DNA from: Planctomycetaceae bacterium
GTDB taxonomy: Bacteria > Planctomycetota > UBA1135 > GCA-002686595
DNA: 64,000 bases
NCBI GenBank assembly: GCA_016125265.1
Contig: WGMC01000041.1
Span: 1 to 64,000 of the forward strand
Direction of reading: 5' to 3'
This document shows, piece by piece, positions 58,057-59,286 of this stretch. Under the pieces are notes generated by a model that worked only from the letters and a program-made list of their open reading frames with translations, was not told the DNA's origin and made no database searches. The translations under genes and the position numbers were made by a program. Position 1 is the first letter of the stretch; each line of letters opens with the position of its first letter.

Positions 58057-59286
58057 ATGGCTCGAAACTCCGCCTCTTTGGGCGCCCACCGCACCCAGCG
58101 CCTGGTCAAGGTCCTCCTCGAGGGCCTCGCCGCGCCGGCGCCCTGCCCGCTCGACTCCCTGGTCGAGGACTACCTGGCCGCCCAGAGCCTTCTGGTTTGC
58201 AAGGCGCACGCGGCGATCACCGCCAGCCGGCTGAAGCGCCTGGTGGCCTCCCTGCGCGCCCGCTCCGCCGGCGTCGGCCGTTCGATCGAGGATGCGCTCG
58301 ACCTGGAGCCCACCTTGGCCGTGGAACACATGCGCGAGCGCCTCGCCGCCGGCCTGGCCCCCGCGACGGTCCGCGGAGACTTGCTCGCCCTCCAGGCCGC
58401 GCTGACCTGGGCCGTCCGCGAGGGCCGCCTGGAAGCGTCGCCGCTGGCCCACCTGCGGCTGCCGCAAGCTGGCCGGGCCCACCAACGCCGCCCCCGTGCG
58501 CGCTACACCCGCCCGGAGCTCCAGGCCTTGGTGCGCGCGGCGCACGCGACGGACGCCGACCGGCTGGCCCGCGGGTCGTGGCGCGTCCCCCAGGCTCCGC
58601 TGCTGGTCGTGTCGATCTGGACCGGCCTGCGCCTCGGCGAACAGCTCGCCCTCACGTACGGGGACCTGGACGTCCGCGCCCGGGCGCTCAAGGTGCGCGC
58701 CGAGACCTCGAAGAGCCGCAAGGTCCGGGTGGTTCCCCTGCGCGACGAACCGCTGCAGGCGATCGCCGGATTGCTCGACGTGCACACCGCCGTGCTGGGA
58801 CGCTCCCCCGGCCAGGGTGACCGGCTGTTCCTCGGCGCGCGCCCGCACGTTGGTAGCCGCCTGCGCCACCCGTGGATCTGGAAGTGGTTCCAGGGGCTCC
58901 TTAAGGATGCGGGTCTCGGGCAGGTCGACGCGTCGGGTTTCGTGCGCACCTGGCACGGGCTGCGCCACGCAGCGATCGACCAGGTCGCCGCCGAGAACAT
59001 CCGCGCCGCTCAACTGCTCGCCGGCCACGCCTCCAGCCGCACCACCGAGGGCTACCTCCACCGCGCGGACGACCTGGTACGCGCTGCGCTCGAGGCCGTC
59101 CCGACGTGGAGCAGCCTGGCAGACAGCCTCCAGTCTGATACCGCTAGCGGGGGCGACCATGGGGATGAAGCGCTCAGCGACCTACCCGCGGTGAGCCTTG
59201 CCGGGCCCGCCGAAGGCGAAATGGCGGAGAGGGAGGGATTCGAACCCTCGGTCCCGGTTTCCCAAGACACCAGATTAGCAATCTAG
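58057..59286 (+). CDS. int: tyrosine-type site-specific integrase
   Basis: A 409-residue integrase. An N-terminal basic arm domain and SAM-like core-binding region (about 33-135) precede the catalytic domain: TGLRLGE (Arg about 192), TSKSRKVRVV (Lys about 219-222), WHGLRH (His 300, Arg 303), LLAGHASS (His 324) and GYLH (Tyr 333). The last 76 residues are not needed for catalysis and run into the tRNA gene: the frame reads antisense through the tRNA 3' half (EREGFEPSVPVSQDTRLAI) and stops at TAG 59284-59286, just beyond the crossover. In the excised circle this C-terminus would instead continue into the 68 codons at 13657-13862. Confidence 0.95.
   Translation: MARNSASLGAHRTQRLVKVLLEGLAAPAPCPLDSLVEDYLAAQSLLVCKAHAAITASRLKRLVASLRARSAGVGRSIEDALDLEPTLAVEHMRERLAAGLAPATVRGDLLALQAALTWAVREGRLEASPLAHLRLPQAGRAHQRRPRARYTRPELQALVRAAHATDADRLARGSWRVPQAPLLVVSIWTGLRLGEQLALTYGDLDVRARALKVRAETSKSRKVRVVPLRDEPLQAIAGLLDVHTAVLGRSPGQGDRLFLGARPHVGSRLRHPWIWKWFQGLLKDAGLGQVDASGFVRTWHGLRHAAIDQVAAENIRAAQLLAGHASSRTTEGYLHRADDLVRAALEAVPTWSSLADSLQSDTASGGDHGDEALSDLPAVSLAGPAEGEMAEREGFEPSVPVSQDTRLAI
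59196..59281. repeat. attR: attR: phage-derived 3' part of tRNA-Ser(GCT) and flank
   Basis: Matches attL (13571-13656) over 86 bp with 4 mismatches, two outside the tRNA and two in the variable arm. The phage copy restores a complete tRNA. The inner 17 bases (59265-59281) are identical and include the anticodon loop. The integrase gene overlaps this site. Confidence 0.92.

Follow-up and report, generated by a model that had tools for sequence, protein, structure and literature searches.

Integrases whose genes contain the attachment site are already on record, and the closest to the present case is IntP of phage Mx8 of Myxococcus xanthus (Tojo 1996; Magrini 1999). In the passages that later papers devote to it, attP lies inside int and integration swaps the C-terminus of the integrase (PMC6070905, PMC4701971, PMC4383910); by one of these accounts, 112 C-terminal residues are replaced by 13 in the integrated form and activity is reduced (PMC4701971), and another describes integration as modifying the specificity of the enzyme, not as inactivating it (PMC6070905). 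The authors of Islander cite both Mx8 and SSV as integrases that extend across attP (PMC4383910). The preliminary description of the locus studied here held that no such switch had been described, a belief that Mx8, with the same anatomy, overturns (PMC6070905, PMC4701971, PMC4383910). The streptococcal ICEs found in rumA, which use serine integrases (PMC4701971), also have the recombination site in the integrase gene and C-termini that differ between the free and integrated states; theirs, however, is a serine recombinase with a protein-coding target and a reciprocal exchange. In mycobacteriophages with integration-dependent immunity of the BPs type (PMC9262239), attP lies in a regulatory gene, the target is a tRNA gene, and the C-terminus is lost to a stop at the junction. 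There, the gene that is cut is the repressor and the part that is lost is an ssrA-like degradation tag, whereas here attP lies in int and the two tails described below end in SDAPR and RGSK, which are neither LAA-like nor ssrA-like. The suicidal integrases of archaea (SSV/pNOB8 type; PMC8371274) likewise carry the att site within the integrase gene, but they are split and inactivated by integration.

In the window (the whole stretch of 64,000 nucleotides that was analysed), the integrase gene of a prophage occupies 58057-59286 of the plus strand and encodes, in its integrated (short) form, a tyrosine integrase of 409 amino acids (Pfam Phage_integrase, PF00589, E=1.8e-16). The catalytic set is complete, and alignment of integrases identifies it as R192, H300, R303, H324, and Y333, all upstream of the att core. 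As Tyr333 precedes the stop of the integrated enzyme by 76 residues, and integration leaves the catalytic residues in place, we rejected assignment to the archaeal suicidal class. The target of integration is a tRNA-Ser(GCT) gene on the minus strand, rebuilt at attR (59222-59313, located with ARAGORN), and the integrase stop, TAG at 59284-59286, falls within it on the opposite strand. The attR copy of the att repeat (59200-59281) spans the 3′ part of the tRNA gene plus flank and encodes the C-terminus of the integrase; the attL copy (13575-13656) is the displaced 3′ fragment of the tRNA. Aligned without gaps, the two copies are identical at 80 of 86 positions (13575-13660 versus 59200-59285). 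Identity ends at 59282 (T) and 13657 (C), and the TAG is thus 5 bases beyond the core. We could therefore reproduce the coordinates of the original observation, that the integrase frame continues antisense through the 3′ half of the tRNA gene and stops within 5 bases of the end of the core.

When the left side of attR is joined to the right side of attL, as in the reconstructed circle, a single frame of 476 codons results, in agreement with the 476-residue product (instead of 409) that had been predicted. As the att repeat is gapless, the point of crossover within the core does not matter for the frame. The tail added by the joining had been given as 68 open codons at 13657-13862; translation started at 13657 is in a different frame, and the part in frame with the integrase is 13659-13862 on the plus strand, 67 sense codons followed by TGA. 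The earlier coordinates were off by two bases at most. The tail is in the integrase frame only in the excised circle.

We searched 61 related genomes with the integrase and made an independent search with the tail. The integrase found one close relative, G016:C1:3696860 (E=1e-56; 38.6-40% identity, 38.6% over 332 residues), and the tail found a single significant match outside the window, G016:C1:3645230-3645406 (E=1.9e-5). The two are 51.6 kb apart and form the two ends of one prophage, which belongs to a host of another genus and sits in tRNA-Met (tRNA-Ser in the window) between att repeats of 54 bp with one mismatch. Its integrated integrase ends inside the tRNA-Met gene after '...IMIPLL*', at most 3 codons from the core; with the ends joined, the frame passes from the integrase through the core to the tail homolog with no stop, and the protein is again longer in the circle than when integrated. 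The search with the tail, part of a check that had been proposed, recovered a tail homolog in the attP-joined frame. An unconserved or frameshifted tail, named beforehand as the outcome that would speak against the idea, was not seen in G016, whose att site differs from that of the window. Searches covering 154 genomes from the order and 392 from the phylum, together with viral contigs, phages, and plasmids, turned up no third prophage with this arrangement. Among viral contigs, scanned with the integrase, the tail, the exact att cores, and the joined integrase, there was no close relative; the phage and plasmid collections gave remote integrases only, with the tail absent; and searches with the neighbouring genes returned G016 again only, besides weak matches. 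Weak matches to the tail elsewhere (E 0.0008-0.01), mostly within other long frames, were left uncounted. The conservation case is thus one of two prophages, in draft assemblies, and the arrangement looks to be known but rare.

The tails of the window and G016 align over 56 columns with a Smith-Waterman score of 87, against null means of 26-27 and null maxima of 48-64. The nulls were shuffled residues and random reading-frame windows of either prophage, 60,000 in all, and a score of 87 was matched by 0 of 20,000 shuffles (maximum 64), 0 of 20,000 random windows of G016 (maximum 48), and 0 of 20,000 random stretches of the window (maximum 51). As the two tails are too diverged for dN/dS, we used identity by codon position in its place. 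It is 52/62/34% at positions 1/2/3, the third being below the first two (Fisher P=0.005), beside a GC content of 0.76/0.62/0.82 at the same positions. Nucleotide identity is about 49%, and the likeness is at the protein, not the DNA, level. The linker from the catalytic tyrosine to the core is unconserved between the phages (score 23, null mean 24), whereas the tail beyond the core is conserved; conservation that resumes past the attachment site therefore fits a protein domain and not binding-site DNA. The free form is ordered as catalytic part, unconserved linker, antisense peptide of the tRNA 3′ part, variable stretch (at least 15 residues), and conserved domain. This domain of about 50 residues begins near tail codon 16 and in the window reads LALELAELPPGSEVLVPSLSALLGILRIAEPLSAALRDGPVLLTSREGSDAPR. 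The tail matched no family in Pfam, and a model built from the single sequence has low confidence (mean pLDDT 65) and one helix. From the comparison of the two sequences, we consider it very probable that the tail genuinely belongs to the free-form integrase as its C-terminal part. Because it is conserved between two phages that use different tRNA genes, we suggest that the edited domain is selected and not incidental.

The tail might instead be a separate small gene at the left end of the prophage, translated in the lysogen and only incidentally fused to int. In window attL, an ATG at 13596 is indeed in frame and has GGAGG just upstream, and translation from it could give a lysogen protein of 88 residues holding the tail; the core of G016 also has an in-frame ATG (L044:1171), and in G016 the tail stop shares bases with the start of the conserved gene that comes next. 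However, both starts are within tRNA-derived or flanking sequence and at non-equivalent places, that of G016 is without a Shine-Dalgarno sequence, and the GGAGG of the window is host-derived, since attR has GAAGG instead. In both phages, the stretch from the core to the conserved portion of the tail is free of ATG, GTG, and TTG. A separate gene would have no need to hold the int frame in each phage when their tRNA cores differ, and we regard this explanation as improbable.

The genes on both sides of the attP module are also conserved between the window and G016. At the left end of the prophage is a zinc-ribbon-like gene of 110 amino acids (14702-15034, plus strand), whose G016 homolog follows the tail directly with an ATGA overlap, and a C2-type zinc-finger-like gene (57359-57880, minus strand) is divergent from int and has a counterpart in the same place in G016 (38-40% identity). 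One could imagine that what matters is transcriptional or translational coupling: the circle would co-express int, the tail, and the left-end genes, integration would cut the operon, and the tail peptide would be a coupling device only. The left-end genes are on the same strand, and the tail stop runs into the start codon that follows it, in the ATGA of G016 and at an ATG (13849) in the window. A mere coupling device, however, would not require a conserved protein sequence; moreover, the window ORF at 13849 is not clearly coding and the conserved neighbour (14702) is 840 bases off. We suggest that this, too, is quite unlikely.

The preliminary description also raised chance as a real alternative, long frames being common in GC-rich DNA: the integrase frame would by accident enter phage DNA without stops, and the tail would have no function as protein. 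The premise is sound. A run of at least 67 open codons is met at 54% of random plus-strand and 44% of minus-strand positions and in 47% of local Markov sequences, and because about half of random positions are equally open, the open length of the tail is by itself no evidence of function. Within the host order, the frames of further integrases likewise enter tRNA genes on the opposite strand (His, Thr, Val, and Gly). The sole case among them that can be joined at both ends, in G021 (an unrelated element at tRNA-His in the same host family), has a reconstructed attP that gives an unremarkable extension of 25 residues with no apparent meaning. It is thus common for an integrase frame to enter the att core, but not for a conserved domain to lie past it. 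The case for the tail being more than chance comes solely from its conservation in G016, and that match contradicts the chance reading: the homolog is in the same frame and place, none of the 60,000 null comparisons was as good, and codon positions 1 and 2 have changed less than position 3 between the two tails. We therefore hold chance to be very improbable. That the tail DNA is kept as arm-binding sites of attP for the integrase, and not as translated sequence, is scarcely credible: the tail does occupy the place expected of the P′ arm, but its nucleotide identity is about 49%, with the minimum at third codon positions, and it matches most strongly as protein in the single frame joined to int.

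Two of the elements entering tRNA genes can be described further. The G021 element (G021:C374:13259-28936; L089/L090) is 15.6 kb in length, lies at tRNA-His, and has an identical att core of 46 bp that its integrase enters. In L010 (G033:C38), the integrase frame crosses the whole antisense tRNA-Thr gene and continues for about 30 codons.

If the tail is indeed the C-terminal part of the integrase, the infecting or excised circle would encode a 476-residue enzyme that includes the conserved end domain of about 50 residues. Recombination of attP with the tRNA-Ser gene would strip this domain, the TAG from the 5′ half of the tRNA directly following the core, and the resulting 409-residue integrated enzyme would retain an intact catalytic part. 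The long form would carry out integration and the short form, weaker or altered, would stabilise the lysogen, as reported for Mx8. We think it probable that the locus has an Mx8-type arrangement, with attP inside int and an enzyme that integration shortens, likely with altered activity: the catalytic residues are intact in the integrated form, attP is in int with the phage form the longer, and the segment past attP is a conserved protein part in the two members. It is somewhat less certain, by analogy, that loss of the tail changes the activity of the integrase, although we favour this. The most likely assignment of roles, again following Mx8, would have the long form driving integration and the short form restrained. 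A bolder proposal is that the tail itself sets direction, the long form favouring integration and the loss of the tail replacing or supplementing a separate excisionase, in a self-inverting switch whose domain family has no relation to that of Mx8; we consider this doubtful. An HTH_17 excisionase, the only excisionase family sought, was found in neither prophage.

The comparison with Mx8 has two sides. Both have a tyrosine integrase, attP in the coding sequence of int, and a tRNA-like att core that is read antisense; in both, a C-terminal segment is exchanged on integration, and the phage-side tails are comparable (112 residues in Mx8, 67 here). However, the tails are dissimilar, with scores within the shuffled range that give no support to common descent, and the integrases show no more than a distant relationship (score 91, null maximum 68). 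Mx8 has 13 replacement residues, where here there are almost none, and its annotated excisionase (uoi) overlaps int; here, no HTH_17 excisionase was found in either prophage. The anatomy of attP inside int is thus already known from Mx8, and the tail domain appears by sequence unrelated to that of Mx8. The locus adds a case to the short list of bacterial integrases edited by their own integration. As the annotation of a prophage shows the short form only, such domains are easily overlooked; joining attL to attR prior to annotation would expose them.

Some further features of the prophage may be recorded. A cytosine-C5 DNA methyltransferase (19499-21049) and a DUF5131 phage protein (16696-17817) have well-conserved counterparts in the G016 prophage, at 61% and 46%, respectively, and a tRNA-Thr(CGT) gene lies within the prophage at 53971-54042. 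The host side of attL (13475-13597) resembles the 3′ end of the integrase beyond the tRNA gene (59101-59222; score 62, null maximum 36). Once the nearest 26 bases are set aside, this likeness is only weakly significant (29 versus a null 99th percentile of 28), and it is perhaps the scar left at this site by an earlier related phage, or a captured host flank.
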